The notes below the pieces were generated by a model. That model made no database searches. It was given only the letters and a program-made list of their open reading frames with translations, and was not told where the DNA came from. Positions 1 through 39,060 of a stretch of 39,060 nt of DNA are shown in pieces. Numbering within the stretch: the stretch's first letter is position 1; the number at the start of each line of letters is the position of its first letter. A program made the position numbers and the translations under genes. The stretch spans positions 1-39,060 of the IMG/VR virus record IMGVR_UViG_3300037628_000932, one strand, 5' to 3'. This DNA is from a virus.

Positions 1-96
1 GCAGAAGCAGGTGGAGAAATACCGGCAGAAGCAGGTGGAGAAATACCAGCAGAAGCAGGTGGAGAAATACCGGCAGGAGCAGGTGGAGAAATAGAT
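1..96 (+). repeat. 24-bp tandem repeats encoding AEAGGEIP (left part of the array)
   Basis: Four head-to-tail 24-bp units at 1, 25, 49 and 73, each encoding A-E-A-G-G-E-I-P; the last is a variant ending in I-D. They are the same units as those at 38934-39029, seen again because of the circular overlap. They are nearly identical at the DNA level, differing mainly at the Pro codon (cca/ccg). That makes recent slippage, and assembly mis-counting, likely. Confidence 0.95.
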
Positions 97-127
97 TATA
101 AGTCGGCTTATAAAAACATGACACCTT
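1..127. repeat. Left copy of 127-bp terminal redundancy (circular contig overlap)
   Basis: These 127 bases are identical to the last 127 bases (38934-39060). The overlap includes a run of 24-bp coding repeats but also about 30 bases of non-repeated sequence at its right end (98-127). A reading frame passes through the join without interruption. The simplest reading is one circular molecule cut at an arbitrary point. An overlap of exactly 127 also equals a common largest assembler k-mer, so it need not be a biological terminal repeat. A genuine short direct terminal repeat cannot be excluded. Confidence 0.93.
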
Positions 128-7717: not shown

Positions 7718-8356
7718 ATGAATGAAGTATATAAACCATTGGATAGTCAGAAAGCTTTTCATGATTCAAATGCCCAGTTTAGGGCTCTGATTGGCGGGGT
7801 TGCGAGTGGTAAGACAACGGCAGGGTGTATGGAACTTTTAAGGCTTTGTACAGAATTAGCTGGAAGTTGTTGTGTTGTATTTAGGATGGTTTATTCTTCT
7901 TTAAATAACATAACAAGAAGAGTTTTTCTTGAACAGTGCCCAAAAGACAGAATAAAAAGCTTTTCTAAATACTATAATATTTTAACTTTTAAAAACGATT
8001 CTAAAATTTATTTTCGTTCTATTGAGCAGCTTGATAGTGTTATGTCTAAAGACTTGGACTTTGTTTATATTGACGATGCCAGTGAGGTAGAAGAGGAAGT
8101 TTTTAGAAAGCTTTCGAGTAGATTAAAAAAAAAGAACAAAAAGGGTTTTATAACAAGCAAGCCTACGGACAAAAAACACTGGATTTATAAGCGCTTTGTA
8201 GAATCCTGTGATTCTAATTATTTTGTTGTTAACAGTGCAAGCTATGAAAACCCCTATCTTCCAGAAGAATATAAAAAACGTCTTGAAGCGTATAGGGGTT
8301 GGGATTTTGGTGGGCAGCCTGAGCCGAAAGGAATTATTTATGAAAGTAATACTTAG
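7718..8356 (+). CDS. ATPase-only terminase-large-subunit-like protein (no nuclease domain)
   Basis: 212 residues. Start ATG 7718 follows GGAAGGGG by 7 bases. Walker A is GGVASGKTT (residues 26-34), and Walker B is DFVYIDDASEV with the acidic pair at 119-120 (Asp-Asp rather than the usual Asp-Glu). A conserved later segment KKHWIYKRFV matches KSHWIYKRFV of the complete terminase at 29538-31055, and the following YENPYLPEEYKKRL matches its ENHYLPEGYEERL. The protein ends at GGQPEPKGIIYESNT, which corresponds to the end of the ATPase domain, so the whole RNase-H-like nuclease is absent. Its last 17 bases overlap the next gene. It is either a stand-alone ATPase that diverged from a terminase or a relic of recombination; sequence drift from the full copy argues against a recent duplication. 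Confidence 0.8.
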   Translation: MNEVYKPLDSQKAFHDSNAQFRALIGGVASGKTTAGCMELLRLCTELAGSCCVVFRMVYSSLNNITRRVFLEQCPKDRIKSFSKYYNILTFKNDSKIYFRSIEQLDSVMSKDLDFVYIDDASEVEEEVFRKLSSRLKKKNKKGFITSKPTDKKHWIYKRFVESCDSNYFVVNSASYENPYLPEEYKKRLEAYRGWDFGGQPEPKGIIYESNT

Positions 8357-9284
8357 AAACCATCAAGCACCTGGCGACATATTAATGCTTACATCCCTTG
8401 TAAGAGATTGGAAAGCTAAGTACCCGGAACACAGGATAAGGGTTAAGACTTCAACGGATGTGTTGTTTGAAAATAATCCCCTTATAGAGAAGGTTAATAT
8501 TGTTCCGAGGTCCTTTAATACTAATGCTGTTAAGTTAGATGAGCAGAAGGATTTAAGCGACAATGGCTGGTTGAATATTGATGTTCATTATGGGGATGAA
8601 GAGCAGCTTGGGAAAAAAGTTGATAATCCATGGTCTATACATAAATGCGGAACACATAAGAAGCATTTTATGTATGGCATGTTTGGATATGTTAATGCTC
8701 TTCTTGGGTTGGATATAAAGCTTACAGAGCTTCGGCCGGACTTTTATCTTAACAAGGAAGATTTTGGCGAAAAAGTTGATGGAGGTAGCTATTGGGTTGT
8801 AGTTCCAGGAGGTAAGCCCGATTATCTAAGGAAAATATGGGCCAAGAGAAACTGGGAAGAGCTTTTTAATTTGTTGCCAGATACTAATTTTGTACAAATT
8901 GGTGGTAGCGAGGCAAATCATATAAAGCCTGTTTTTGATAATGGCACTGTATTAAATTTAACGGGGAAAACAACATTACGTCAGGTTTTGTCGCTCATAC
9001 ACAATGCTAAGGGCGTTATATGTCCTATTACATTTGCCATGCACGCTGCATCCTATTGGCCGGAGAAGAAATGTATTGTAATTGCGGGTGGCGGTGAACA
9101 TCACACATGGGAGGCTTATCCTGGTCATGATTTTCTTCATACTTGCGGTACTCTTGAATGCTGCAAAGATGGCGGGTGCTGGAAAGGCAAGTGTAGCAAT
9201 AAGAACCCTGAAACGGGTGAGCAGCGGTGTATGGAGCTAATTACGGCTCATGATGTGGATGAGATTGTGAAGGGGTATAAATAA
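8340..9284 (+). CDS. Glycosyltransferase family 9-like (heptosyltransferase-type)
   Basis: 314 residues from ATG 8340; the frame is open further upstream but that part lies inside the ATPase gene. The N-terminus MKVILRNHQAPGDILMLTSL is the typical GT9 opening (basic residue, then PGD, then a helix). The second Rossmann half has WVVVPGGKPDYLRKIWAKRNW, followed by FVQIGGSEANHI, LNLTGKTTLRQVLSLI and ICPITFAMHAASY, the usual order in ADP-heptose:LPS heptosyltransferase-like enzymes. The C-terminus carries an unusual cysteine cluster (TCGTLECCKDGGCWKGKC). It overlaps the upstream ATPase by 17 bases and the methyltransferase by 1 base, so translation is coupled. It probably transfers a sugar in the host cytoplasm; the acceptor (host surface glycan or phage tail protein) is unknown. 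Confidence 0.82.
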   Translation: MKVILRNHQAPGDILMLTSLVRDWKAKYPEHRIRVKTSTDVLFENNPLIEKVNIVPRSFNTNAVKLDEQKDLSDNGWLNIDVHYGDEEQLGKKVDNPWSIHKCGTHKKHFMYGMFGYVNALLGLDIKLTELRPDFYLNKEDFGEKVDGGSYWVVVPGGKPDYLRKIWAKRNWEELFNLLPDTNFVQIGGSEANHIKPVFDNGTVLNLTGKTTLRQVLSLIHNAKGVICPITFAMHAASYWPEKKCIVIAGGGEHHTWEAYPGHDFLHTCGTLECCKDGGCWKGKCSNKNPETGEQRCMELITAHDVDEIVKGYK

Positions 9285-9970
9285 TGTCAGTTCAACTGTT
9301 GAACATAGGAAAGCCATGGTTAACGGAAGAGGCAATAGCTCTTTTGGAAGAACTTGCACCATTTAAAAGGGTTTTGGAATTTGGTTCTGGCGGTAGCACT
9401 GTTTTTTTTGCAAAAAGGGCGAAGAGTGTTATTTCCATTGAGCATGATGAGAAGTGGTTTGACCTTGTGGAAGACAAGTTGGTTGAAGAAAAAATCTCTA
9501 ACGTTGAACATATATTAATACCAAGATATGAGGGTGACAATGTTATTCCGAGAAAAGATGGGTATGTAAAAGTTATATCTGGTATTGAAGGGAGTTTTGA
9601 TTTAATCCTGGTAGACGGCAGGGAAAGAGGTGTTTGTATAAGAGATTCTTGTTCAATGATGGAACCTGGAAAATATCTAATCTTGGATAATTATCAAATG
9701 GATAAATATCAGAAAGCAATTAAAGGATTTATTCCTGGCTGGGAATTTACCCCTTTTAACAGTAAAACAAGAAAATGGAAGGGTTTAGGTACAGCTTTTT
9801 ACCAGAAGCCTGGAATTATGCAGAATTTAGCTCAGGCCAAAGAACAATACCCTTATTTTGATGAGTTTAAAGATGAAATAGCACGTATTATGGTGTGGCA
9901 TAAAAGACTTTCCAAAGATGAGGCATATAAAATAGCGGCCTTTAATAAAGTAAAAGGGGAAAATAAATGA
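9284..9970 (+). CDS. Class I SAM-dependent methyltransferase-like protein
   Basis: 228 residues. Start ATG 9284 overlaps the previous stop (TAATG). The SAM-binding motif I is RVLEFGSGGSTVFFAK (about residues 29-44), followed by the acidic end of strand 2 in ISIEHDEKWFD and by FDLILVDGRERG. This is the Rossmann-fold layout of small-molecule or sugar methyltransferases found in glycan clusters. The C-terminal 60 residues are charged and helical. Set between glycosyltransferase genes, it most likely methylates a sugar or nucleotide-sugar-derived residue. DNA methylation looks unlikely because no DPPY/NPPF-type motif IV is visible. Substrate unknown. Confidence 0.8.
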   Translation: MSVQLLNIGKPWLTEEAIALLEELAPFKRVLEFGSGGSTVFFAKRAKSVISIEHDEKWFDLVEDKLVEEKISNVEHILIPRYEGDNVIPRKDGYVKVISGIEGSFDLILVDGRERGVCIRDSCSMMEPGKYLILDNYQMDKYQKAIKGFIPGWEFTPFNSKTRKWKGLGTAFYQKPGIMQNLAQAKEQYPYFDEFKDEIARIMVWHKRLSKDEAYKIAAFNKVKGENK

Positions 9971-9990
9971 AAATAATAACACTTTAAATT

Positions 9991-10191
9991 ATGTTGTTTT
10001 CTGTGGGATGCTCTGTAACAGTTGGGACGGTAAATCTTGATGGAGACCCAAAAACAGATATTGTTGTGGATAAAACTATATCCACAGACGTTCGGCCAAA
10101 AACACAGGTAACACAAGGCACAGGCTCTATGCGTTCAGAAAGTGAAGCCGGCCAGACAGTCACGGCAACTAAGCCGGAGTCGGTAAAATAA
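9991..10191 (+). CDS. Small lipoprotein with in-frame stop codon in its signal peptide
   Basis: The readable frame from ATG 9991 gives 66 residues starting MLFSVGCSVTVG. The same frame has an ATG at 9967 that overlaps the stop of the methyltransferase (ATGA), giving M-K-I-I-T-L, then TAA (9985-9987), then I-M-L-F-S-V-G-C. Reading TAA as a sense codon would give a textbook lipoprotein signal: a Lys, a short hydrophobic core, and a lipobox ending in Cys. I therefore see an ancestral gene 9967-10191 interrupted by one nonsense base, or a sequencing error (TTA to TAA). The mature part is Thr/Ser/Asp-rich and looks extended. It precedes an XhlA-like gene, so an outer-membrane spanin or other lysis role is possible but not shown. 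The restart at 9991 keeps the lipobox but has no basic N-terminus. Confidence 0.55.
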   Translation: MLFSVGCSVTVGTVNLDGDPKTDIVVDKTISTDVRPKTQVTQGTGSMRSESEAGQTVTATKPESVK

Positions 10192-10430
10192 TGAACCCTG
10201 ATGAGGTGTTACAAATATTTAATAATACCTTTAAAGATTTTGAATCTCGGATTGAAAAGCGTTTTGATAAGGGTGAAAAGCTTTTTGAAGAAATTATAAA
10301 AGAAAAATCGGTGCATGGTGAAAGGCTTGCCAAGCTTGAGACTTCTCAAAAATGGACTAATAGAATACATGGTTTTCTTATAGCTACTTTGGCCAGTATT
10401 GCAGGTATTTTTTTTAGGCATAAATTATGA
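10191..10430 (+). CDS. XhlA-like small membrane protein (holin-associated)
   Basis: 79 residues. Start ATG 10191 overlaps the stop of the upstream lipoprotein. Residues about 12-55 form a charged helix or coiled coil (FKDFESRIEKRFDKGEKLFE, GERLAKLETSQKW). A single C-terminal transmembrane segment follows (FLIATLASIAGIFF) with a short basic tail (RHKL). This layout, an N-terminal cytoplasmic coiled coil ending in RLxxLE...W before one membrane helix, matches the haemolysin XhlA family that accompanies phage holins. No typical two- or three-helix holin is visible next to it. The endolysin is 11 kb away at 21.4 kb, so the lysis functions are split. Moderately confident in the family; the lysis role is from family knowledge. 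Confidence 0.68.
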   Translation: MNPDEVLQIFNNTFKDFESRIEKRFDKGEKLFEEIIKEKSVHGERLAKLETSQKWTNRIHGFLIATLASIAGIFFRHKL

Positions 10431-10437
10431 GGTGTAT

Positions 10438-11118
10438 ATGATACCCATATTTTTAATGACAAAAGACAGGCCGGAGTATTTGAAAAGGACGTTAGATTCT
10501 CTCGGTAAGACCAATAACCATGATTTTATGTTCCACATATACGACGATTGCAGCCAGTCTAATGAGCAATTGGAACTCTTGGAAGGATTTTCAGAGGGTT
10601 GTTTTAGGTTTAAGCAGACTATGGGAACTAAGCAAATATGGTTAGCTATGTTAATGCGCGCATTCCAGGGGCTTCATGCTGATTACTTTATCCATATTCA
10701 GGACGACATTATTTTCCATCCTGAATGGCTTAATAATCTGCTGGCAGTAAAAGACAATATCCCTAACCTGGGTATTTTAACACCTTGGGATAGGCGGCAT
10801 TGGGGCGGAGAGAGTGGCGACGGCTGGGTTATGCGCAATATGAAAGGTAAAACCTGCAAAATAGGCGGGTGCTGCTGGCTTGTTACAAGGGCTTTTGGCT
10901 TAAAGGTTCTTGAGTTGTACCAAGATAAAAAGCTTACTAGAAACTGTTTTGATTCATTTTTTCAGGGTGTTTGCAATAATTTGGGATTTAATATAGCGGC
11001 TACATCCCCTTCATGGGTTGACCATTTTGGTATAGATTCTATTGCCCACAAAGGTAAGAAAAGGACCGCTTCAAGTTATCGGGCCTGGAACCCTGTGGAA
11101 GGAATGGAGAAGGTTTAA
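10438..11118 (+). CDS. Glycosyltransferase, GT-A fold / family 2-like
   Basis: 226 residues from ATG 10438, preceded by GAGGTG; a longer frame back to 10399 lies inside the XhlA-like gene. The N-terminus IPIFLMTKDRPEYLKRTLDS is the classic GT2 opening. HIYDDCSQSNEQLELL follows, then FIHIQDDIIFHPEW, which holds the Asp-Asp metal/nucleotide-sugar motif. It then shows the acceptor half ending in a Lys/Arg-rich C-terminus. It sits 7 bases after the XhlA-like gene and abuts the GT4 gene (stop at 11118, ATG at 11119). It is a cytoplasmic glycosyltransferase; donor and acceptor are unknown. Confidence 0.8.
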   Translation: MIPIFLMTKDRPEYLKRTLDSLGKTNNHDFMFHIYDDCSQSNEQLELLEGFSEGCFRFKQTMGTKQIWLAMLMRAFQGLHADYFIHIQDDIIFHPEWLNNLLAVKDNIPNLGILTPWDRRHWGGESGDGWVMRNMKGKTCKIGGCCWLVTRAFGLKVLELYQDKKLTRNCFDSFFQGVCNNLGFNIAATSPSWVDHFGIDSIAHKGKKRTASSYRAWNPVEGMEKV

Positions 11119-12102
11119 ATGGAAACAGCAATACTATGTAATACAAAAATGCTTGGCGGCGGCGAGCGTTCAGCGCAGAAGCTGCTTGAAATGCTGCAAA
11201 CGGGGGGAGTAAGTGCCAGGGGTTACAGTTTGCATCCTGATAATAAGCGATGTAAGGGCATGGAACCATGGGAAGATTGGAGAACTTGTAAGGCCAAGCA
11301 TCAAATATGGGTAATGAACGATAAAATATACAGACTTCAAAAAGAGGATTTTAGCGATTTTATTACAGTGTTGCAGTACGCAGAGGATGTAAGGTTCATT
11401 ATAAATTTTGTTCATGGCGGTTTGTGCCAAAGAGAATGGCTTAAAGATATTCCTGTAAAGAAAGTGATTTTTCTTAATTCCACAAAAGAGAAAGACTGGT
11501 TAAAAAAATGCAAGCATGGTAACGAGAATATTCCTACCTCTGTTTTGCCGCCGCCTGTTGATATTGATATGTTTTTAGATGCTTCTAGGGAAATGAGGAA
11601 TGATTCTGTAATAACTATAGGCTCTCATGGTGGTAAAGACGCTTCTGATTCTATTGATATCTGTGAAAGCTTGATAGAAAAACATAATTTGAGGTTTGAA
11701 TTTCTTCCTGGAACAAGCGAGTTGAGGAAAGAATATGAAGGTGTTCTTAACATGTGGTTTCATCCTAAAACTTCAAATGTAGGCGATATTATAGCTTTTC
11801 TGTCTGGATTGGATATTTATGTGTACCACCTAAACCCCAAGTCCCATACTCAAGGACCTCGCACAGTTATGGAAGCAATGGCCATGGGGCTTCCTGTTGT
11901 TACTGATGCTTGTTTGGATTGCGGTATGAAAGACCGCATAGAGCATGGTGTTACAGGGTTTTTGTGTAACGGCAAGGATGAGATTATACATTATACGTCT
12001 ATGCTTATAGAGTATGAAGAACTAAGGCATGAAATGGGACTAAACGCTTTAAGGGCTGCAAGGAATATGCAGCCTGAAAGATGGTTGGAGGAGATAATAT
12101 AA
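11119..12102 (+). CDS. Glycosyltransferase family 4-like (GT-B fold)
   Basis: 327 residues. The N-terminal half shows CNTKMLGGGERSAQKLLEML, the Gly-rich loop of GT4 enzymes, plus VHGGLCQREWL. The C-terminal donor-binding half includes VLPPPVDIDMF and HTQGPRTVMEAMAMGLPVV, with the E-x7-E type arrangement, and then GVTGFLCNGKDEI. It begins directly after the GT2 stop codon and ends in a 1-base overlap with the LamG tail gene, so the glycosyltransferase cassette and the tail proteins are one transcription/translation unit. The enzyme is about 40-60 residues shorter than many GT4 members but both halves look present. Acceptor not known. Confidence 0.83.
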   Translation: METAILCNTKMLGGGERSAQKLLEMLQTGGVSARGYSLHPDNKRCKGMEPWEDWRTCKAKHQIWVMNDKIYRLQKEDFSDFITVLQYAEDVRFIINFVHGGLCQREWLKDIPVKKVIFLNSTKEKDWLKKCKHGNENIPTSVLPPPVDIDMFLDASREMRNDSVITIGSHGGKDASDSIDICESLIEKHNLRFEFLPGTSELRKEYEGVLNMWFHPKTSNVGDIIAFLSGLDIYVYHLNPKSHTQGPRTVMEAMAMGLPVVTDACLDCGMKDRIEHGVTGFLCNGKDEIIHYTSMLIEYEELRHEMGLNALRAARNMQPERWLEEII

Positions 12103-17186: not shown

Positions 17187-18392
17187 ATGATGATTAAAAT
17201 AACGAAGAAGTTTGTTGATGGATTGCCTTTTACGGTGTCAGGGCAGAAGTTCTACAGGGACCCTTTAATTAAGGGTTTTGGTGTTAGGGTAGGTCTGACG
17301 GTTAAGGCTTATTATGCGGAGAAGATGGTTAAGGGGCGTGTTGTAAGGAAGACTATTGGCATCCATGGTCAAATTACAACGGAGTTTGCCAAGAAGCAAG
17401 CCCAGATCTTATTAACTAATATGGTTATGGGTATCGACCCTTTTGAGGCGGAGCGTAAAGAGTTGGCTTGCGCTGTAACATTAAGAGAGGTTGTGGAGCG
17501 GTTTTTTGAGGTAAAGAAGGATTTATCCGAGAATACTATTATCAGTTACAAGAATAAGTGTAATCGGTATATAAGTGACTGGATGGATAAGCCAATTAAA
17601 ACCATATCAACGGATATGGTTTTAAAGAGGCATAGTAAAATAGGAAAAGAGAATGGAGAGTATGCGGCAAATTATACTATGAGGGCTCTTCGGAGTTTTT
17701 TTAATTTTGCGATAAACATGTATGACCACATTAATGAGAATCCTGTTGAGATATTGTCAAAGATTCGGGGGTGGTACCGTGAAAAGCGGCGGCAAAATAT
17801 TATTAAGGAGTGTGATCTGCCTGCTTTCTGGAAGGGAATTGGGTATATTAACAACCAAAGTGTTGGCTGTGCAGATTATATTACGTTTTTACTGATGACG
17901 GGTTTGCGCAGAAGTGAGGCTTCCTCGCTTGAATGGGAGGAAGTTAGTTTTAAGGACAGGTCATTTTTTGTAAGGGGCGACAAAACGAAGAACCATGAGG
18001 ACCTGGAGCTTCCTCTAAGTGATTTTTTACTGGAAATGTTAGAACGCCGTCATAAAGAGGGTGGTTTGAAAGTGTTTAACGTGAAGGATGGTATGGTGAA
18101 CTACAGGATAAAGGAAATTAACGAAAGGTTCGGTGTGGCCTTTACCCCTCACGATTTGCGAAGAACGTTTATAACGATAGCTGAGAGCCTCGATATTTCT
18201 GCTTATGCTGTAAAGCGTATGGTTAACCATAAAATGGGCGGAGATGTTACGGCGGGGTATATAATTCCCAATGTTGATAGGCTGCGCAAGCCTATGCAGA
18301 AGATTACGGATTATATATTGCTAAAGGCTGGTGCTGCCGCCAGGACTCCTGGTAAAGTTGTGCAGCTTAGAGCAAATCATCAGGAAGGTTAG
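17187..18392 (+). CDS. int: Tyrosine-family site-specific integrase
   Basis: 401 residues from ATG 17187, 5 bases after AAAGGTGA (ATG 17190 is equally possible). The first 90 residues are a DUF4102-type arm-binding domain (KKFVDGLPFTVSGQKFYRD, IKGFGVRVG, KTIGIHG). A SAM-like core-binding domain spans about residues 95-185. The catalytic set is visible: Arg in TGLRRSEASSLEW, Lys in GDKTKNHEDLELP, His-x-x-Arg in TPHDLRRTF, the second His in MVNHKMG and the nucleophile Tyr in VTAGYI. It inserts the phage into the host chromosome and, with an excisionase, removes it. Its 3' end overlaps, tail to tail, 72 bases of the minus-strand surface-protein gene. The attP core was not identified; the repeat region just upstream is the best candidate. 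Confidence 0.95.
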   Translation: MMIKITKKFVDGLPFTVSGQKFYRDPLIKGFGVRVGLTVKAYYAEKMVKGRVVRKTIGIHGQITTEFAKKQAQILLTNMVMGIDPFEAERKELACAVTLREVVERFFEVKKDLSENTIISYKNKCNRYISDWMDKPIKTISTDMVLKRHSKIGKENGEYAANYTMRALRSFFNFAINMYDHINENPVEILSKIRGWYREKRRQNIIKECDLPAFWKGIGYINNQSVGCADYITFLLMTGLRRSEASSLEWEEVSFKDRSFFVRGDKTKNHEDLELPLSDFLLEMLERRHKEGGLKVFNVKDGMVNYRIKEINERFGVAFTPHDLRRTFITIAESLDISAYAVKRMVNHKMGGDVTAGYIIPNVDRLRKPMQKITDYILLKAGAAARTPGKVVQLRANHQEG

Positions 18393-19268
18393 TATTATTA
18401 TTCCCCACTCGTTTAGTGTGGGAACTTTCTTTTCTGTTATTACAAGTATTTCACATCCTTTTTCATCTATGTTTGTGTTGGGTGGTGTGTTGGGGCATTC
18501 GTCTATGTTGTCCATGATGCCGTCTTCGTCTGTGTCAAATTTGGAAGGGATGTATACGTCTTTAAGATTTAAGAAGTATGTGTTTGCCCATCCTTTTTCT
18601 GGAGTGTTATAAAAACTAATTAAACCTCCCAAAGAGCCGATGCCCTTTGCCACTATAATAATTTCGGAAAAATTGTCGTTTTTTTGATAAGTCTGTGTAT
18701 AAGAGTTAAAGTAATAGTGTTGGTAGTTTATGATTAAAACATTTCTTAACTCATTAAGAGATGGCATATAAACAGTACTTTCCGCTTCAACGGTAGCTAT
18801 TATTTTCATCCAAGATAATTCGTACCTAAATTCTATTTGGAACTCTGCAACTTCCCATTTCTTACCTATTTTGAGGGGAAATTCAAATAACTTCATGTCT
18901 GTATAAATTTGAGAAGAAAGAATAAAACCTCCATAGAGTGTTGAATCTGTTTTTCTAACAATCATCTCTGTAGGGGTTTTCTTAATGAAGTAAGGTGTTT
19001 TGTTAAGTAATCCCATGCTTATTCCAATAGGGATGTAAGTTTCACCGTCTATCTTCTCCGGTTTCTTTATTGTTTCAATATGACTATCTATAGGTTTTTC
19101 AGTCGGGAATAATTCTCCATTTGGGCTTATTAAGCTTTCGCTTCTTTCAAATAAAAAGATAGAGCCTTCTTCCAGCGGTATATCTTCGCTATTTATTACT
19201 ATTTCCGCAAAGCAGCATGTATTTATTGATACGAGAAAAATAAAAGCAATAAATAGTGTTTTCTTCAT
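18321..19268 (-). CDS. Secreted surface protein with TSP3-like repeat and IPTL-CTERM-type sorting signal (lysogenic conversion candidate)
   Basis: 315 residues. The N-terminal signal peptide MKKTLFIAFIFLVSINTCCF is clear. The middle 220 residues are beta-rich with no recognised fold. Residues about 245-272 are a thrombospondin-3/OmpA-type calcium repeat (FDTDEDGIMDNIDECPNTPP). Residue 282 starts VPTLNEWGIIILTFLMI, matching the IPTLxxWG-CTERM signal, which in the known family is handled by exosortase H in Gram-negative bacteria. The usual Arg-rich end is replaced by CSKLHNFTRSPGGSTSL, encoded antisense to the integrase 3' end. Its ATG overlaps the repressor stop (ATGA), with AGAAAGGG as ribosome-binding site inside the repressor gene. 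It is therefore expressed in the lysogen. It probably changes the host surface, for example to exclude other phages; that last step is inference. Confidence 0.82.
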   Translation of the reverse strand: MKKTLFIAFIFLVSINTCCFAEIVINSEDIPLEEGSIFLFERSESLISPNGELFPTEKPIDSHIETIKKPEKIDGETYIPIGISMGLLNKTPYFIKKTPTEMIVRKTDSTLYGGFILSSQIYTDMKLFEFPLKIGKKWEVAEFQIEFRYELSWMKIIATVEAESTVYMPSLNELRNVLIINYQHYYFNSYTQTYQKNDNFSEIIIVAKGIGSLGGLISFYNTPEKGWANTYFLNLKDVYIPSKFDTDEDGIMDNIDECPNTPPNTNIDEKGCEILVITEKKVPTLNEWGIIILTFLMICSKLHNFTRSPGGSTSL

Positions 19269-21953: not shown

Positions 21954-22008
21954 TAAAAACAAGAGTTTGCCTGTTATGCCTAAAAACAGGGTAAAAGGCG
22001 TGTAACAA

Positions 22009-22057
22009 AAAAGGCTTGACATTTGTAAACACTGTAATGTCAAGTGTAAAGCCTTTT
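22009..22057. terminator. Nested inverted repeat downstream of the endolysin gene
   Basis: Outer arms AAAAGGCTT (22009-22017) and AAGCCTTTT (22049-22057); inner arms CTTGACATT (22015-22023) and AATGTCAAG (22036-22044), a perfect 9-bp pair around 12 bases. The two pairings share CTT, so they could be alternative. The T-run after the outer stem makes a (possibly bidirectional) terminator possible. The inner pair could equally be an operator at the edge of the origin region. Confidence 0.45.
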
Positions 22058-22189
22058 AAAGCAAGTATTATGCCAACCTGGCCACCGTGAGTTTAAGACA
22101 ATAGAAACAGTGTGTTATGGTTTTAAGAAAAAATATTACTGTTTTTAAGATTAGAAAATTTTAATGTGCTATAAAAAACAATGGGTTAA

Positions 22190-22241
22190 GGTATACCCCG
22201 ATCTTTTGGAAAAAGGGGTAAAAAGGCTATGAGGGTATACC
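22190..22241. promoter_or_regulatory. Two GGTATACC palindromes upstream of the replication gene
   Basis: GGTATACC at 22190-22197 and 22234-22241, 44 bases apart (about four helical turns). The same 8-bp palindrome recurs at 26451, 27483, 27536 and 27643 in non-coding DNA. A likely operator for a phage HTH regulator; the protein is unidentified. Confidence 0.6.
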
Positions 22242-22267
22242 TTTTTTGGAAAACTGAAAAAGTAAAA

Positions 22268-22771
22268 GTGCGCAGTTTTGTAAATGATTGTTTTTGTTAC
22301 GATTTTAGAAATATTTATAGTTTTCCCTTATAACCTTTTATTAAACAACAGGTTATAAAATAAGAAGTTTTATTTGTAATTATTTTTGCGTACTTTCCTT
22401 CCCGCTTGCGCACTTTTTTGAAGTTAGTTTTATGGTTATGTTAACAACATGTTTATGTAAACTAAAGTAAGTTTTAGAATAATCCGTATTCCTTTAAATA
22501 TCATCAAAGAAAAAAACTCCATAACAACTTTATTTAGGTGGGTACTTTGATGTGTCTTGACTTATGTAGACTATTTTACAAAAAAAGTGCGCAAGTAGGG
22601 TGAAAAGTGCGCAACGGTATTTAAGTTATTGTAATTATTTAAGTTACTAAATTTTAAAAAAAAGTGCGCAAAGTTAATTCCCACTACTAGAGGAAAAATA
22701 TAAAAAGTGCGCAACGGTTGTTATCTTATTGTTTGTATATGCGTTACGTTAATTTTAAAAGTGGTGCGCAA
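22268..22771. repeat. GTGCGCAA iterons: probable replication origin
   Basis: The 830-base gap 21954-22782 has no gene. It contains GTGCGCAA preceded by an A-run at 22587, 22607, 22664, 22707 and 22764, a near copy (GTGCGCAG) at 22268, and inverted copies TTGCGTAC at 22386 and TTGCGCAC at 22406. A 9-bp inverted repeat TTATAACCT/AGGTTATAA (22328-22336/22350-22358) lies within. The DNA between them is AT-rich. Repeated short sites beside an AT-rich tract directly before a primase-helicase gene are the usual form of an iteron-type origin. The binding protein is not known; the downstream fusion protein or a host factor are candidates. Confidence 0.72.
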
Positions 22772-22782
22772 GAATAACTATT

Positions 22783-25700
22783 ATGGGTAATTTTAGTCAA
22801 TACAGAAAAGATGTGCTTTTAAGGGTGTCTTGGGAGCAAGTATACGGGGAATTAAAAGGGCAAAAGGACCCTACAAATAACTGGGTGAGCTGCTTCTGTC
22901 CTTTTCATTCAGACCACAAAACCAGGTCTTTCTCATTTAACAAAGTGAGTTTGGGTTGGACCTGTTTTGCTAAGTGCGGTAATGGTGATGTTGTCGACTT
23001 TGTTAAAAAGATGCGGGAAGTAGACTTTACAGAGGCTCTTCAATGGCTCGGCGATTTGAATCATATTTCAAGAGAAGAGATTGAAGGCGTTCCTAAACCG
23101 CCCCTTAAGGAAGAGATGATTCAACAATATGTTGATGCGCTGCGCCCGGAAGACCGTCAATATCTAGGCGATAAGCGAGGTTTGGTTTCTGAGACTATTC
23201 AGGAATATAAGATTGGTTTTGTGGGTGGCAAAGCTCCGCGGATTTCTATTCCTGTTTATGATGATAACGCCGAGTTGGTTAATATTAGGCGTTACAGGGA
23301 GAGCGAAAAAGACGGTAGGAAAATGATAAATTATACCAAGGTAAAGCCAGGCCAAGAGGGGAAGAAGAAAAAGGATTATTGGGGGTACGGCTCCCCCGCC
23401 AGGTTGTGGCCGCTGGATAAGATGCTAAAAACCGAATCAGACGAGGTTATTTTTTGCGAGGGTGAGTGGGACTGTATTTTGCTTCGGCAGTACGGCTTTA
23501 ATGCCGTGACTGGGACGGCGGGTTGTAGGACATTTTATGAATGGTGGGTAAAGTGGCTCATTGGTAAAGACGTTGTACTTATATATGACTATGATGAAGC
23601 AGGTCGGCAGGCCGTGAGCGGTAGTGTTCTTCCTTTGTTAAGAAGACCTCTTCTAAATGGCGAGATAAATTCTCTGAAAGTGGTTTGGCTGCCATTGAAG
23701 GGGACAAAAGAGGATAACGACGTTGGGGATTATTTTCTTAAGCATGAAAATAATCCTGCTGATTTACGGCAGCTTATTACTACTACGCCATATTATCAGT
23801 ATATTGATGAGAGTGATGAGGAGATTCATATACTCGATTCCTTTCGGGATATTGACAAGAATAAGTATATGGATAAGCTGGTAAAGGTTCGTATTGTTGC
23901 AATGGGTGATGTTTACGGCACTTATGGCGCTATAAAAACATTTAATGTTCATGCCTGTCCTGAGATGAAAAAGGACAACTGTAATAAATGTACGGACACA
24001 ATAGTAGTGCCAGACGGTCATAAGTCCATGATTGCGTGCTGCAAGAAGGACGAACTGAATGTAATATCCATAATGAAACTGGTTTGCTGCGACCGCGGAG
24101 TTAGGCGGCAAACTATTGAATTAAAAGATAAAATAACTGTTAAGACTATAATTGTTCATCAAGTTATGGAAGTGATTGACGAGCTGGGTGAGATGAAAGA
24201 GGGAAGTAATAATTTTGAAGAGCGGGAAGTTTTTCTACTGTCGGAGGTCGCTCCTGAACCTGGCACATATGAGGCTATTGGATATGTGAGGACAAGTCCC
24301 ACTGACAGCAGCATAACAATGCTTATAACCTCGATGGTGAAAGTTGAGGATGATTATAAAAGTTTTATCTTGAAGGATAAGGTTAATATTCTTGAAGAAT
24401 ATAGAAAATTAAGTATAAATGAGGTTGTGAGCGATATTAGTACCCATGTGACTAATATTTACGCTCGGGATGATCTTTTGAAGCTGCTCATGCTGACGTA
24501 TTGCAGCGTTAGGTGGTTTAATTTTAATGGACAGCTAATAAGGGGTTGGCTGTTTACCGGGATTATGGGCGACTCTGGCTCGGCAAAAAGTCAGCTTTAT
24601 GAAACTGTTTTTCCGTGGCTAGATCTAGGCGCTTGTATTCAGTCGCAAACATCCAGCAGGACGGGCATAATATATTTTTTAAGCCAAGTAAAGAACACTG
24701 GTACATGGGTTCTCAGGATGGGGAAATACCCATTGAACCATGGAAAATTTCTAGTGGTAGACGAAGCGCATTTATTACCCCAAGACGAAGAAGGATTAAG
24801 AGCCTTTACTTCGGGAATTTCCCAGGGCAAGGTGGAGATTACTAGAGCTGTTACCAGAACACTCCAGACAGAAACCAGACTAATGTTTATTTTTAATCCC
24901 GCTAAAGATAAGGGGATGTCGAGGTTTCTTTTTGGGTGTCAGTCCTTATCTGAGGTTATGTCAGGTCCAATGATTAGGAGGATGGATTTATGTTGTTTCG
25001 CGAACCGAAACGACATAAAAGATAAAAGTCGCATTGATGCTATTGTCGAGAATTTGCCGCCGCAAAAAGTAAGCGCTGAAATGATGAAATCAGTTATATA
25101 TTGGGCTTGGAACCTAAAACCCAAGGATGTAGAGTTCTCAAAAAAGGCGATTCAGGCGGTAATGTACTATAAGGGGACGCTTTCAAGGGAATTTGGGTTC
25201 GCCTTAAATGTTCCACTAGTTTTTCCTGATGATTTTCGACATACACTGGCGAGATTGTCCGTTGCCTGGGCCGTTTTTAGCGGGTCGGGCAGTCCAGGTT
25301 TTAAGAAATTGTTGGTTAGGCCGGAGCATGTTGCTGCGGTTTCGGAGTATTTGTTCAATGTTTACAGCGCCAAGAATTGTCGTTTAGACAAGGTTTCTAA
25401 TTTCGCTATGCGTGATGCTACGTTGGCGGATTATGGAGAAATCAGGGAGAGATTCCTTAAGAAGCAAATAGACGGTAGACGGCAGTTTAATGGGGGGGAG
25501 CCCAGTTTTGTCAGGGTTTTACATTGTTTTTACGAGAGAAATTCTCTTACGAAGGGTGATTTGTTGGATTTGACGGGCTGTGGTAAGGACAGCCTAGAGG
25601 ACATTATAAGTTGGTTGAATGGGAAAAGGCTTATATTTGTTGGTAAGGGCAAATACGAGATGAAGGCCAAGCTTGTGGATTTTTTCCAGGAATTTCTGGA

Positions 25701-25836
25701 AGATGAAACCTATTACGTTTACAGCCGAAACGGTAAGGATTTTACAGAAAAGATAGGGGCCGTCCTGTTGGGTAAGGACGGAAAGAAAGAGTTTACTAAT
25801 TGTGGGATGAATTATTTTAGGAATATGGGGAGGTGA
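22783..25836 (+). CDS. Primase-helicase fusion: CHC2 zinc finger, TOPRIM, and MCM-type AAA+ helicase
   Basis: 1017 residues. Residues 39-65 are a CHC2 zinc finger (CPFH ... CFAKC). TOPRIM: CEGEWDCILL (Glu 226 and Glu 228) and IYDYDEAGR (Asp 269, Asp 271). Residues about 365-540 resemble the MCM N-terminal OB fold with a Cys-rich insert (Cys 392, 400, 403, 419, 420). The AAA+ module has the MCM-type Walker A GDSGSAKSQ (Lys 602, with Ala before Lys as in MCM proteins), Walker B FLVVDEAHLL (660-661), sensor-1 FNPA (Asn 705), the arginine-finger region GPMIRRMDL (about 733), and a sensor-2-like FRHTLARLSVAWA. The last 130 residues form a winged-helix-like end. It should prime and unwind phage DNA at the iteron origin just upstream. 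DnaG-type primase joined to an MCM-type motor is rare; known phage/prophage MCMs are mostly fused to AEP primases. No DnaB/RecA-type helicase gene is seen. Confidence 0.88.
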   Translation: MGNFSQYRKDVLLRVSWEQVYGELKGQKDPTNNWVSCFCPFHSDHKTRSFSFNKVSLGWTCFAKCGNGDVVDFVKKMREVDFTEALQWLGDLNHISREEIEGVPKPPLKEEMIQQYVDALRPEDRQYLGDKRGLVSETIQEYKIGFVGGKAPRISIPVYDDNAELVNIRRYRESEKDGRKMINYTKVKPGQEGKKKKDYWGYGSPARLWPLDKMLKTESDEVIFCEGEWDCILLRQYGFNAVTGTAGCRTFYEWWVKWLIGKDVVLIYDYDEAGRQAVSGSVLPLLRRPLLNGEINSLKVVWLPLKGTKEDNDVGDYFLKHENNPADLRQLITTTPYYQYIDESDEEIHILDSFRDIDKNKYMDKLVKVRIVAMGDVYGTYGAIKTFNVHACPEMKKDNCNKCTDTIVVPDGHKSMIACCKKDELNVISIMKLVCCDRGVRRQTIELKDKITVKTIIVHQVMEVIDELGEMKEGSNNFEEREVFLLSEVAPEPGTYEAIGYVRTSPTDSSITMLITSMVKVEDDYKSFILKDKVNILEEYRKLSINEVVSDISTHVTNIYARDDLLKLLMLTYCSVRWFNFNGQLIRGWLFTGIMGDSGSAKSQLYETVFPWLDLGACIQSQTSSRTGIIYFLSQVKNTGTWVLRMGKYPLNHGKFLVVDEAHLLPQDEEGLRAFTSGISQGKVEITRAVTRTLQTETRLMFIFNPAKDKGMSRFLFGCQSLSEVMSGPMIRRMDLCCFANRNDIKDKSRIDAIVENLPPQKVSAEMMKSVIYWAWNLKPKDVEFSKKAIQAVMYYKGTLSREFGFALNVPLVFPDDFRHTLARLSVAWAVFSGSGSPGFKKLLVRPEHVAAVSEYLFNVYSAKNCRLDKVSNFAMRDATLADYGEIRERFLKKQIDGRRQFNGGEPSFVRVLHCFYERNSLTKGDLLDLTGCGKDSLEDIISWLNGKRLIFVGKGKYEMKAKLVDFFQEFLEDETYYVYSRNGKDFTEKIGAVLLGKDGKKEFTNCGMNYFRNMGR

Positions 25837-26145: not shown

Positions 26146-26442
26146 GTGGCTTTAAATATTTCAAAGAATTTGATTAATGCAAGAAAAAACATAGGTGTGA
26201 ATAAATCCCAGGTTTGTAAAGACTTGGGTATGCCTAGGAGTAATCCTACTAGGTGGGAAAAAGGGCAGGTAGTGCCGTCGTTGGAAAATATATCACTTTT
26301 GGCGCAGTATTATGGGGTTACCATCGATGATATTGTTTATGGGGAGATTGAGTTTGTTGAAAAATTAGTTGATGACTTGATACTTCCAAAGCCCGTGATT
26401 CGCAAGGGGGAAGCTATTGACATAATCACACCAGGACGTTAA
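26146..26442 (+). CDS. XRE-family HTH regulator
   Basis: 98 residues from GTG 26146, following GAGGGTG. A helix-turn-helix covers residues 5-65 (NLINARKNIGVNKSQVCKDL, RSNPTRWEKGQVVPSLENIS, QYYGVTIDDIVYG). The remaining 30 residues have no recognised domain. It is the last gene of the replication unit; a GGTATACC palindrome lies 9 bases past its stop and a strong terminator follows. A natural hypothesis is that this protein binds the GGTATACC sites on both sides of the replication module, regulating it. Confidence 0.8.
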   Translation: MALNISKNLINARKNIGVNKSQVCKDLGMPRSNPTRWEKGQVVPSLENISLLAQYYGVTIDDIVYGEIEFVEKLVDDLILPKPVIRKGEAIDIITPGR

Positions 26443-26450
26443 ATAAACAG

Positions 26451-26458
26451 GGTATACC
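26451..26458. promoter_or_regulatory. GGTATACC palindrome after the replication unit
   Basis: Part of a 16-base sequence AAACAGGGTATACCTT (26445-26460) that is repeated exactly at 27477-27492. It lies between the stop of the XRE regulator and the terminator. A duplicated operator is the simplest reading. Confidence 0.55.
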
Positions 26459-26498
26459 TTAGAATTCAATGAATATGGGAATTGGCGTGATGCGGGTT

Positions 26499-27376: not shown

Positions 27377-27482
27377 GTAGGGAAATATATTAATATTCAT
27401 TTTATTGGTTAACTTGTTGATATTTAAGAGATTAAAATAGTTAATAACATTAACATAATCATAACAAAAGGGGAAAAAACAG

Positions 27483-27684
27483 GGTATACCTTGAAAATCA
27501 GTAAATACAGGGGTTAAGGTGAATTCTTGCGCCGAGGTATACCGAGATAGCCAGGGATAGGCCCCCCCCTTGTAAAAGTGGTACGCAAAAAGTGCGTACC
27601 ACTTTTACGTACCCCCCCCCTATGCAGCGAGAAGTGGGTAGAGGTATACCTCAGCTATTTATTGTATTGTTATTTTGCTATACC
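27483..27684. promoter_or_regulatory. Cluster of GGTATACC palindromes
   Basis: GGTATACC at 27483-27490, 27536-27543 and 27643-27650, with a 7/8 match at 27677-27684. The first is inside the 16-base duplicate shared with 26445-26460. They surround the large palindrome at 27572-27608. Same motif as upstream of the primase-helicase gene. Confidence 0.6.
27572..27608. repeat. Perfect 16-bp inverted repeat built from iteron sequence, flanked by C-tracts
   Basis: GTAAAAGTGGTACGCA (27572-27587) and its exact complement (27593-27608) around 5 bases. The arm contains AAAAGTGGTACGCAA, matching AAAAGTGGTGCGCAA at 22757-22771 in the origin region at 14 of 15 positions. A run of eight C lies just before (27562-27569) and nine C just after (27612-27620). 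No T-run, so it is not a standard terminator. Possibly a second initiator-binding site, an ssDNA initiation hairpin or part of a packaging site. Confidence 0.75.
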
Positions 27685-29313: not shown

Positions 29314-29541
29314 ATGGAGACGAAGAAGAGAGTAGTTATTAGGGAGATGCCTATAACCAAAATTGTTGGTTATGTGAAGCAAAGATGGGATATAGATGTT
29401 CCCTCAGGCACGATAAAAAGTGCTGCACAGAGCGGACGTCTTACTGCTGAAAAGAATGAGTTTAATTTTTGGATGGTGAAGCCCAAGGATATTGAATCGT
29501 GGCTTAAAGCCACGAATAGGTTTTACAAACGGCGTAAATGA
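29314..29541 (+). CDS. Small HTH protein next to the large terminase
   Basis: 75 residues. The sequence PITKIVGYVKQRWDIDVPSG then TIKSAAQSGRLTAEKNEFNF and MVKPKDIESWLKATNRFYKR has the helix-turn-helix plus wing pattern of the HTH_17 group, similar in layout to the protein at 26537-27022. Its stop overlaps the terminase start (ATGA). A DNA-binding protein coupled in translation to the large subunit may be the true small terminase subunit. The alternative is a late regulator. Confidence 0.6.
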   Translation: METKKRVVIREMPITKIVGYVKQRWDIDVPSGTIKSAAQSGRLTAEKNEFNFWMVKPKDIESWLKATNRFYKRRK

Positions 29542-31055
29542 AAACATGGACAGAGTTTAGGGCAGAAAAGAAAGAGAATCTATGGGCTAAAAAACGGGTT
29601 GTATCAATGCAGCCCAAGGGGAGTAATGGAATTGATATACACCCTTTTTTGGGGTGTGAGCTGCTTCCCAAGCAAAAACTTTTTCTTTCGGCCTGGCAGC
29701 AGTATATTGCCTATATAGGCGGCGTAGGGAGTGGCAAAACATCTGTTGGATGTTGGGCCATTAATCTGTTGGGCTTGGAGTTCCCTGGTAATGAGCTTTT
29801 GGTATGTAGGTCAACGTATAGAAAATTAAAGGATAGTACGAGACACGCATTTTTTGAAATGCTAGCTGCTATCACTTTCTTAATAACAGGGAGAGCAGGA
29901 GATGTTTTAGAACCTAAAACGTGTCCTCTGGTTCTGGATTTTTCCAAAACAGACAACGATCTTATTATTTATACGGGGCGTGGAAACAGACCTAGCATTA
30001 TTCGTTTTAGAAGCCTTGATAATTATGAAAATCTACTTTCAACGCAATTTGGCAGCGCGTTAATAGACGAGGCTACAGACCAGGCTTTTACGGAAGAGAT
30101 TTTTAGAGCTATTGACGGTCGTTTGCGACATCCCGCTCAAAAAGGGAAGCACAAATTATTTTTAACGACTAATCCATGCAACAAAAGCCATTGGATATAT
30201 AAACGGTTCGTTAGGGATAAAGACCCTAATTATGTATGTTTCAACGCTCCAACTTCTGAAAACCACTATTTGCCTGAAGGTTATGAAGAAAGGCTTAGAA
30301 AAAATTTCCCGAAGGTTTACGCCCAAAGGTATTTAGATGGTGAATTTGGGGTTAGTCTGGACGGTGAGCCGGTTTTCCCTAATTTTACAGAAGAGCGGCA
30401 TGTAGGGCGGTTTAAATATAATCCCGCTCTGGGGCCTATACATAGAGGTTGGGATTTTGGCAGGCGACATCCTGCATGTCTTTTAACACAAATAAAGGCT
30501 AATAGAATTTACGTGTTAAAAGAATTGCAGGGTGAAGATATGCTAATAAAATCTTTTGCTGAAGATGTTTTGCAACACTGTGAAGAATTTTACCCAAATG
30601 CCCAATATAAAGATTTTGGAGATGTAGCGGGGAATCAAAAAGGTGATAAATCTGAGAAAACTTCTATAGAGATTCTCAGGCTTTTAAAAATTAATACTGT
30701 TTGTACTAAGGTCTTTATTAAACCTGAAATAGAAAAAATATTAGTTCTCCTCGAAGACGGAGAAGATAAATTTCCGAGGATTTTAGTTGATGCTGGGTGT
30801 GAGATTTTTATATCCGCTATGAGCGGCGGGTATCATTATGAAACAGACCCTAATAAATCTGATTCTGATGTGTTGCCGAAGAAGGACAATGTACACGATC
30901 ATTTTGTAGATTGTTTTAGATACATTATTGGAAACAATGCGGGATTTAATATTTGGTGGAAGCAGTTGTTTGCAAGAAAGAGCGATTATAAATCTTTTAG
31001 GTGGCATCAAAAATTAGCGAAGGGAGGGAAAGGTTATGGCGGGCGAGTATTATAG
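29538..31055 (+). CDS. terL: Terminase large subunit (ATPase plus nuclease)
   Basis: 505 residues. Start ATG 29538 overlaps the upstream stop by 4 bases. ATPase: Walker A GGVGSGKTS (61-69), Walker B FGSALIDEATDQ (Asp-Glu at 177-178), coupling motif LTTNP (209-213), and KSHWIYKRFV. The RNase-H-like nuclease follows: IHRGWDFGRRHPACLL (Asp 306), YKDFGDVAGN (Asp 359/362) and DHFVDCFRYI (Asp 454/458). Complete and intact. It pumps DNA into the capsid through the portal and cuts concatemers. It precedes an unknown virion gene and the capsid gene; the portal is 6 kb away, which departs from the usual terminase-portal order. Confidence 0.95.
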   Translation: MKTWTEFRAEKKENLWAKKRVVSMQPKGSNGIDIHPFLGCELLPKQKLFLSAWQQYIAYIGGVGSGKTSVGCWAINLLGLEFPGNELLVCRSTYRKLKDSTRHAFFEMLAAITFLITGRAGDVLEPKTCPLVLDFSKTDNDLIIYTGRGNRPSIIRFRSLDNYENLLSTQFGSALIDEATDQAFTEEIFRAIDGRLRHPAQKGKHKLFLTTNPCNKSHWIYKRFVRDKDPNYVCFNAPTSENHYLPEGYEERLRKNFPKVYAQRYLDGEFGVSLDGEPVFPNFTEERHVGRFKYNPALGPIHRGWDFGRRHPACLLTQIKANRIYVLKELQGEDMLIKSFAEDVLQHCEEFYPNAQYKDFGDVAGNQKGDKSEKTSIEILRLLKINTVCTKVFIKPEIEKILVLLEDGEDKFPRILVDAGCEIFISAMSGGYHYETDPNKSDSDVLPKKDNVHDHFVDCFRYIIGNNAGFNIWWKQLFARKSDYKSFRWHQKLAKGGKGYGGRVL

Positions 31056-38774: not shown

Positions 38775-39060
38775 ATGGCGGGAGAAATACTAGCAGAAGC
38801 AGCGGGCGAGGGAACAGTACCAGCGGGAGAAATACCAGCAGAAGCAGGTGGAGAAATACCAGCAGAAGCAGGTGGAGAAATACCAGCAGAAGCAGGTGGA
38901 GAAATACCGGCAGAAGCAGGTGGAGAAATACCGGCAGAAGCAGGTGGAGAAATACCGGCAGAAGCAGGTGGAGAAATACCAGCAGAAGCAGGTGGAGAAA
39001 TACCGGCAGGAGCAGGTGGAGAAATAGATTATAAGTCGGCTTATAAAAACATGACACCTT
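38775..39060 (+). CDS. Scaffold-like repeat protein, N-terminal part (continues at the start of the window)
   Basis: ATG 38775 lies 10 bases after the portal stop, with AAGGGGGAAA just upstream. The reading frame stays open to the end of the window and, over the circular overlap, continues to the stop at 694-696. The N-terminus MAGEILAEAAGEGTVPAGEI leads into eight 8-residue repeats (AEAGGEIP), giving a strongly acidic, probably extended segment, then YKSAYKNMTPYLN. An antisense open frame over the same repeats (Leu/Pro/Val-rich) is an artefact of the repeat. The acidic repeat could be a flexible spacer within the procapsid, or a DNA-mimicking surface; both are speculation. Confidence 0.78.
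   Translation, partial: MAGEILAEAAGEGTVPAGEIPAEAGGEIPAEAGGEIPAEAGGEIPAEAGGEIPAEAGGEIPAEAGGEIPAEAGGEIPAGAGGEIDYKSAYKNMTP
38838..39029 (+). repeat. Eight tandem 24-bp repeats encoding AEAGGEIP
   Basis: Units start at 38838, 38862, 38886, 38910, 38934, 38958, 38982 and 39006. Seven encode AEAGGEIP exactly; the last is AGAGGEID. Unit differences are mostly cca/ccg in the Pro codon. Copy number may vary between virions and may be under-counted by a short-read assembly. Confidence 0.95.
38934..39060. repeat. Right copy of the 127-bp terminal redundancy
   Basis: Identical to bases 1-127. When making a circular map, one copy should be removed, giving about 38,933 bp. Confidence 0.93.

Follow-up and report, generated by a model that had tools for sequence, protein, structure and literature searches.

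The 39,060-nucleotide stretch of viral DNA analysed here (the window; IMG/VR record IMGVR_UViG_3300037628_000932) encodes a protein in which a DnaG-type primase is joined to an AAA+ motor of the MCM family. We consider it likely that this protein is the replicative primase–helicase of the phage and that it uses a 3′–5′ MCM ring. It is a variant of a known phage primase–MCM fusion, bearing the other primase, and the DnaG–MCM fusion is common among phages, cultured and uncultured, that lack a bacterial-type replicative helicase.

Domain organization of the DnaG–MCM protein

The gene is a single open reading frame of 1017 amino acids (22783–25836, plus strand, as are all domains given below). A CHC2 zinc-binding domain at residues 31–96 (22873–23070; Pfam PF01807, Zn_ribbon_DnaG, E 3.6e-10) is followed by a DnaG RNA-polymerase core with a TOPRIM fold at about residues 110–340 (23110–23802), delimited by a family profile against Aquifex DnaG (2au3) and including R169, K180, E228, D230, D269, D271 and D313. 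An OB-like region with a four-cysteine site occupies residues 350–525 (23830–24357) and is defined by strands in the model and by the cysteine pattern. The MCM AAA+ motor spans residues 528–865 (24364–25377), based on Pfam MCM, the PDB profile, Foldseek and conservation. A C-terminal helical or winged-helix-like domain at about residues 884–974 (25432–25704) is taken from DSSP of the AlphaFold model, which has a mean pLDDT of 84. No AEP domain is matched by Pfam in the window protein and the N-terminal primase is of the DnaG type.

A first-pass annotation of this DNA, made from the letters alone, had described a CHC2 and TOPRIM primase fused to an MCM-type AAA+ domain. That architecture is borne out, with every motif it named lying where it was placed. 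The zinc ligands it assigned to residues 39–65 are C39, H42, C61 and C65. The Cys-rich OB-like region it proposed contains C392, C400, C403 and either C435 or C436, which fit a four-cysteine pattern found in most family members, and the winged-helix-like end appears in the model as four helices (884–901, 908–918, 924–931 and 935–947) and two short strands (951–953 and 957–960).

The primase half is best judged across the family, for which we used an alignment of 43 non-redundant members, the window included, that are ~19–26% identical to the window protein. Taken by itself, the window protein matches Toprim_2 at E 0.0035, under the curated Pfam cut-off, and a PDB comparison with the single protein places Aquifex DnaG on residues 153–287 at E 3e-4. 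The TOPRIM call is firm because 42 of the 43 members match Toprim_2 and because the family profile aligns to Aquifex DnaG 2au3 across CHC2 and TOPRIM (E 1.1e-30), with the E and DxD residues in register. Pfam also detects MCM in 41 members and CHC2 in 38. Residues G227, E228, D269, D271, G274 and D313 are invariant, R169, Y171, K180 and D230 are nearly so, and the CHC2 ligands are largely kept (C39 in 40/43, H42 in 37/43, C61 in 40/43 and C65 in 38/43). Judged from the alignment, conservation of catalytic residues at this level of identity is far beyond chance. The EGE (226–228) and DYD (269–271) motifs of the first-pass annotation are thus sustained through E228, D269 and D271, and the TOPRIM acidic residues, whose misalignment it had named as one ground for refutation, do align to Aquifex DnaG.

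Identity of the AAA+ motor

The motor motifs GDSGSAKSQ, VVDEAHLL, FNPA and IRRMDL begin at residues 596, 658, 704 and 731. They supply the Walker A lysine (K602), the Walker B pair (D660–E661), the sensor 1 asparagine (N705) and the arginine finger (R733); R688 is at the pre-sensor-1 hairpin and R824 is the probable sensor 2. In the 43-member alignment K602, E661, N705 and R733 are invariant, and position 824 is arginine in 39 sequences and lysine in four. Paired strands in the AlphaFold model mark the sites of the helix-2 insert (631–635/642–646) and the pre-sensor-1 hairpin (683–687/691–695), the latter with lysine or arginine at the hairpin position in 39/43 members.

Pfam assigns an MCM P-loop domain to the window protein at E 3.3e-8. 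The same model exceeds its cut-off in each of 14 control genomes, among them that of E. coli, and is a weak marker alone; we therefore rejected it as sole proof and rested the identity on the PDB profile, Foldseek and a motor HMM built from the family. This weakness is what could be said for a generic AAA+ domain of the RavA/MoxR, Mg-chelatase/ComM or sigma54-activator groups, acting in regulation or repair. The other comparisons point elsewhere. MCMs are matched at residues about 500–750 by the single protein (best E 1.3e-6), the best 60 PDB matches of the family profile are DnaG and MCM only, and the best 50 Foldseek matches of the model in the PDB are all MCM (best E 4e-25). The motor HMM scores AEP–MCM proteins at 298–334 bits and archaeal MCMs at 38–94 bits, against 13 for E. 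coli ComM and 6 for NtrC, while RavA gives no score at all. A generic AAA+ identity, which the first-pass annotation had named as the outcome that would undo its assignment, is largely refuted and very improbable, with all three lines of comparison favoring MCM. The OB-like region consists of long beta strands in the model; it has no significant match by sequence to archaeal MCM OB domains, and the Foldseek whole-model alignments are long enough to span it.

Occurrence in other phages

The fusion is not an oddity of a single phage: tblastn and IMG/VR both reveal many cultured and uncultured phages that carry it. With the whole protein, tblastn matches 44 phage records over at least 80% of its length, and with the motor half alone 50 records. 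The matches are to Microbacterium phages (36 records), the Bacillus BSP7 and BSTP phages, Weizmannia phage Youna2, Arthrobacter phage Wollypog and one uncultured siphovirus, and they also include an AEP-fused phage and an archaeal virus, with two records each. All DnaG-type relatives examined match MCM (weakly in some) and TOPRIM in Pfam, and most match CHC2. Labels of these records include 'DNA primase' and 'DNA primase/helicase'. The Youna2 protein (L008 2474–5488) is annotated 'DNA primase small subunit', a label that misfits the primase half of what is a CHC2/TOPRIM plus MCM protein.

An IMG/VR scan with TOPRIM-based patterns found at least 172 relatives, a count that is not an unbiased census because such patterns favor DnaG-type proteins. 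A scan of IMG/VR with a single sequence found no relatives, a mixed DnaG/AEP alignment yielded no usable search pattern and a scan of genome contigs gave two weak primase matches only. Among 80 loci kept from the pattern scan, primase and motor share one open reading frame in 72 and lie in two overlapping frames in four (L060, L062, L072 and L076). In all four the gene is split between the OB region and the AAA+ motor, and the second frame is in the −1 register with an ATG within a shared TTTCAATG. The motor (about 430 aa) may thus be produced alone in these phages, by re-initiation or frameshifting.

Apart from the rarity of named examples, nothing speaks for a chimeric assembly or a chance fusion. 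The one-frame architecture of those 72 loci and of several independently sequenced cultured phages, together with the grouping of the fused primases in one clade (support 100/99), already refutes this explanation, to which we assign practically no weight.

Relation to AEP–MCM proteins

The same OB region and motor occur with AEP domains in Bacillus phage vB_BboS-125 and in B. velezensis plasmid p3, and the OB region gives HMM matches of 105–134 bits to AEP–MCM proteins. The first-pass annotation had described phage and prophage examples from the Bacillus cereus group as carrying AEP primases instead, and the characterized one does: BcMCM, from a Bacillus cereus prophage, has an AEP domain and shows 3′–5′ helicase, ssDNA-stimulated ATPase and primase activities (PMC4538821).

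The fused DnaGs all group in one clade of the primase tree (100/99), apart from six free DnaGs, with the window the first to branch. Capture of a DnaG module by the window phage only was considered and rejected, as the window primase groups with the other fused primases at this support. In the motor tree, the AEP–MCM proteins are one clade (100/99), to which the window motor is sister (91/95) on a long branch; its end branch of 2.28 makes it the most divergent member. An AU test does not reject a single clade of DnaG-fused motors (p 0.38). On these trees, the simplest reading would be one DnaG–MCM fusion and one exchange of primase on a shared motor.

Archaeal MCMs fall outside the phage and bacterial clade, separated by a long stem. 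On this sequence evidence the window motor belongs to a branch of MCMs from bacterial mobile elements that includes the AEP–MCM proteins and is far from archaeal MCMs across the long stem, and so it is not a recent archaeal import. Of the first-pass proposal of a replisome core of mixed origin, the MCM family of the motor is retained, and the term 'archaeal/eukaryotic-type' should be narrowed to a divergent branch of MCMs from bacterial mobile elements. In Kazlauskas et al. 2018 (PMC5862659), the MCMs that occur with AEP in mobile elements of bacteria are judged highly divergent and improbable as recent acquisitions from archaea; no DnaG–MCM fusion is mentioned in the passages on MCM and DnaG.

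A broader and still tentative reading is that DnaG–MCM is a widespread, unrecognized core of phage replisomes, with an MCM ring that has replaced DnaB wholesale and bears a bacterial primase at its front, and that BcMCM represents a narrow side branch that exchanged DnaG for AEP.

Helicases and polymerases encoded alongside the fusion

A DnaB_C search over 44 records (the window, 38 other DnaG–MCM records and five AEP–MCM records, some of them fragments) gives no match, and an AAA_25 search over the same records gives nothing over the cut-off. Phages with a related free DnaG (Wakanda, Genie2, PS1 and DeM53M), in contrast, have an annotated replicative (DnaB-like) helicase gene adjacent to it or one small gene away. 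This difference is our best indication that the fork is driven by the MCM half. Of the DnaG–MCM records, 16 of 39 carry PolA; DnaE is present in 14 of 37 that were scanned for it, and the two never occur together in one record.

These distributions also bear on the idea that the protein acts in fork restart or recombination-dependent replication, with host machinery responsible for the main replication. A restart role has been proposed for BcMCM (PMC4538821). The absence of a DnaB-family helicase from all 44 records, with no AAA_25 match over the cut-off, and the strict conservation of the fusion alongside either type of polymerase make such a role improbable here, and we prefer to see the protein as the replicative primase–helicase.

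In the window genome, searches of nearly all open reading frames of at least 80 aa that do not overlap its integrase, repressor-like, terminase, portal and adaptor genes, together with six-frame searches, detect no PolA, DnaE or DnaB. The first-pass statement that no DnaB-type helicase is present thus stands, DnaB_C being without a match in a record that is probably complete. Its description of a 'self-contained replisome core' is not supported, as no PolA or DnaE is recognized, and the phage must use a host or an unrecognized polymerase. From this gene content, priming and unwinding are probably the phage's own and DNA synthesis the host's.

Genome context and a candidate origin

The first and last 127 bases of the window (1–127 and 38934–39060) are identical, as expected of a circular contig built by a k = 127 assembler, and the genome is therefore probably complete and circular at 38,933 bases. 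A 24-base tandem repeat encoding GGEIPAEA repeats lies at 38826–39026 and 1–93, in a gene that spans the end overlap. The phage is of the temperate type, with genes for an integrase, a repressor-like HTH protein, a terminase, a portal and an adaptor. There are two genes for terminase large subunits: a full one of 505 aa (29538–31055) and a 212-aa copy of the ATPase half (7718–8356). The two are 36% identical, and the end of the shorter one overlaps a glycosyltransferase-9-like open reading frame. Glycosyltransferase-like genes of families 9, 2 and 1 form a run at 8208–12102 in the late region. Beside the integrase, a 315-aa open reading frame (18321–19268, minus strand) matches TSP_3 and IPTL-CTERM weakly, which is unusual for a phage and may hint at a Gram-negative host.

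The DnaG–MCM gene is preceded by an AT-rich non-coding stretch of 829 bases (21954–22782), within which a cluster of AAAGTGCGCAA-like repeats at 22265–22770 is a candidate replication origin or operator. Seven of the eight GTGCGCA sites in the window fall in this cluster, irregularly spaced; 1.7 sites are expected in the whole window and none of 100 shuffles reaches eight. The 11-mer of these repeats, allowing up to one mismatch, has eight matches against 0.95 expected, seven of them in the cluster. Such clusters occur in only two of 42 relatives (p ≤ 0.01) and are not a family-wide feature. Further repeats and palindromes containing GGTATACC flank the replication gene on both sides (22188–22243, 26442–26490 and 27474–27554) and are possibly operators of HTH regulators.

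The position of the cluster directly upstream of the gene invites the suggestion that the protein is mainly a Rep-like initiator, whose MCM ring melts an origin at the repeats and makes the first primer before a host DnaB replisome drives the fork. The lack of PolA and DnaE in the genome would suit this role, and the SCCmec helicase Cch2, whose role in a mobile element is comparable, binds AAGTG iterons and depends on them (PMC7581432). Relatives that encode PolA or DnaE themselves are likewise without DnaB, however, and such repeats are absent from most of them, and a fused primase fits repeated lagging-strand priming. We regard an initiator role as unlikely, if the least unlikely of the alternatives to a replicative primase–helicase.

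A model for a probable replicative primase–helicase

In the model that we favor, six copies of the protein would probably form an MCM-type AAA+ ring. By analogy with MCMs, and with the BcMCM motor taken as homologous, the ring would thread one strand of the fork and move 3′–5′, taking over from DnaB the task of unwinding. Tethered ahead of the OB-like region, the DnaG-type module would make RNA primers at its TOPRIM metal site, and the CHC2 zinc finger would read the template, as expected from DnaG. A ring on the leading-strand template would leave the lagging strand as the excluded one, which the N-terminal primase could catch outside the ring. At the eukaryotic CMG helicase, Pol α-primase works on the excluded lagging strand, and the arrangement would be roughly alike. 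The geometry is expected to differ from that of T7 gp4, as gp4 moves 5′–3′ and has the lagging strand running through its ring (PMC12593628). Primers would be handed to a host polymerase in the window phage and to the PolA or DnaE that relatives supply themselves. The upstream repeats may be the site of ring loading. Counting against the replicative reading are the sub-cut-off Toprim_2 score of the protein alone, the divergence of its motor, the lack of a recognized phage polymerase and the restriction of the repeats to few family members.

Comparison with known systems

Replisomes are usually described as bacterial (DnaB and DnaG) or archaeal/eukaryotic (MCM and AEP). The present fusion, which occurs in phages that can be cultured, crosses these sets within a single polypeptide, and related motors bear either primase. 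Whether a primase known from 5′–3′ DnaB rings can function on a 3′–5′ MCM ring is thereby open to test, and the protein is a possible single-chain model for MCM–primase coupling. About 50 public phage records, most with names such as 'DNA primase', can now be annotated as having an MCM-like motor, and these public, unremarked relatives allow easy testing in cultured phages. We found no report of activity tests on a DnaG–MCM protein in the literature, where the fusion itself may have been mentioned earlier.

The closest characterized system is the BcMCM-type AEP–MCM, which has the same order of primase, OB/Zn region, MCM motor and C-terminal domain. Its motor and OB region are homologous to those of the window protein along their whole length (about 300 and about 120–130 bits by HMM), whereas its N-terminal AEP and the DnaG-type primase of the window have unrelated folds. 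The deposited DnaG–MCM fusions (the Microbacterium Krampusvirus group, Wollypog, BSP7/BSTP and Youna2) share both primase family and motor with the window protein and are 22–25% identical to it (Youna2 left out of this figure); unlike the window phage, they encode a DnaE or PolA themselves. An MCM fusion is described neither in their records nor in the literature that we found.

T7 gp4 and Twinkle likewise combine a DnaG-like zinc finger, a TOPRIM domain and a hexameric helicase in one chain, the hexamer being inferred for the window protein. Their motor is of the RecA-fold DnaB family and runs 5′–3′ (PMC12593628), in contrast to the AAA+ MCM motor of the window, and a DnaB_C motor of the gp4 type has no match in the window genome. 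Archaeal MCM and eukaryotic MCM2–7 have no fused primase and lie outside the bacterial–phage clade, beyond a long stem. They share with the window protein the AAA+ core, the helix-2 insert, the pre-sensor-1 hairpin and the sensor and arginine-finger residues, and a winged-helix-like end; before the motor they have an OB/Zn region, to which the OB-like four-cysteine region of the window protein may correspond.
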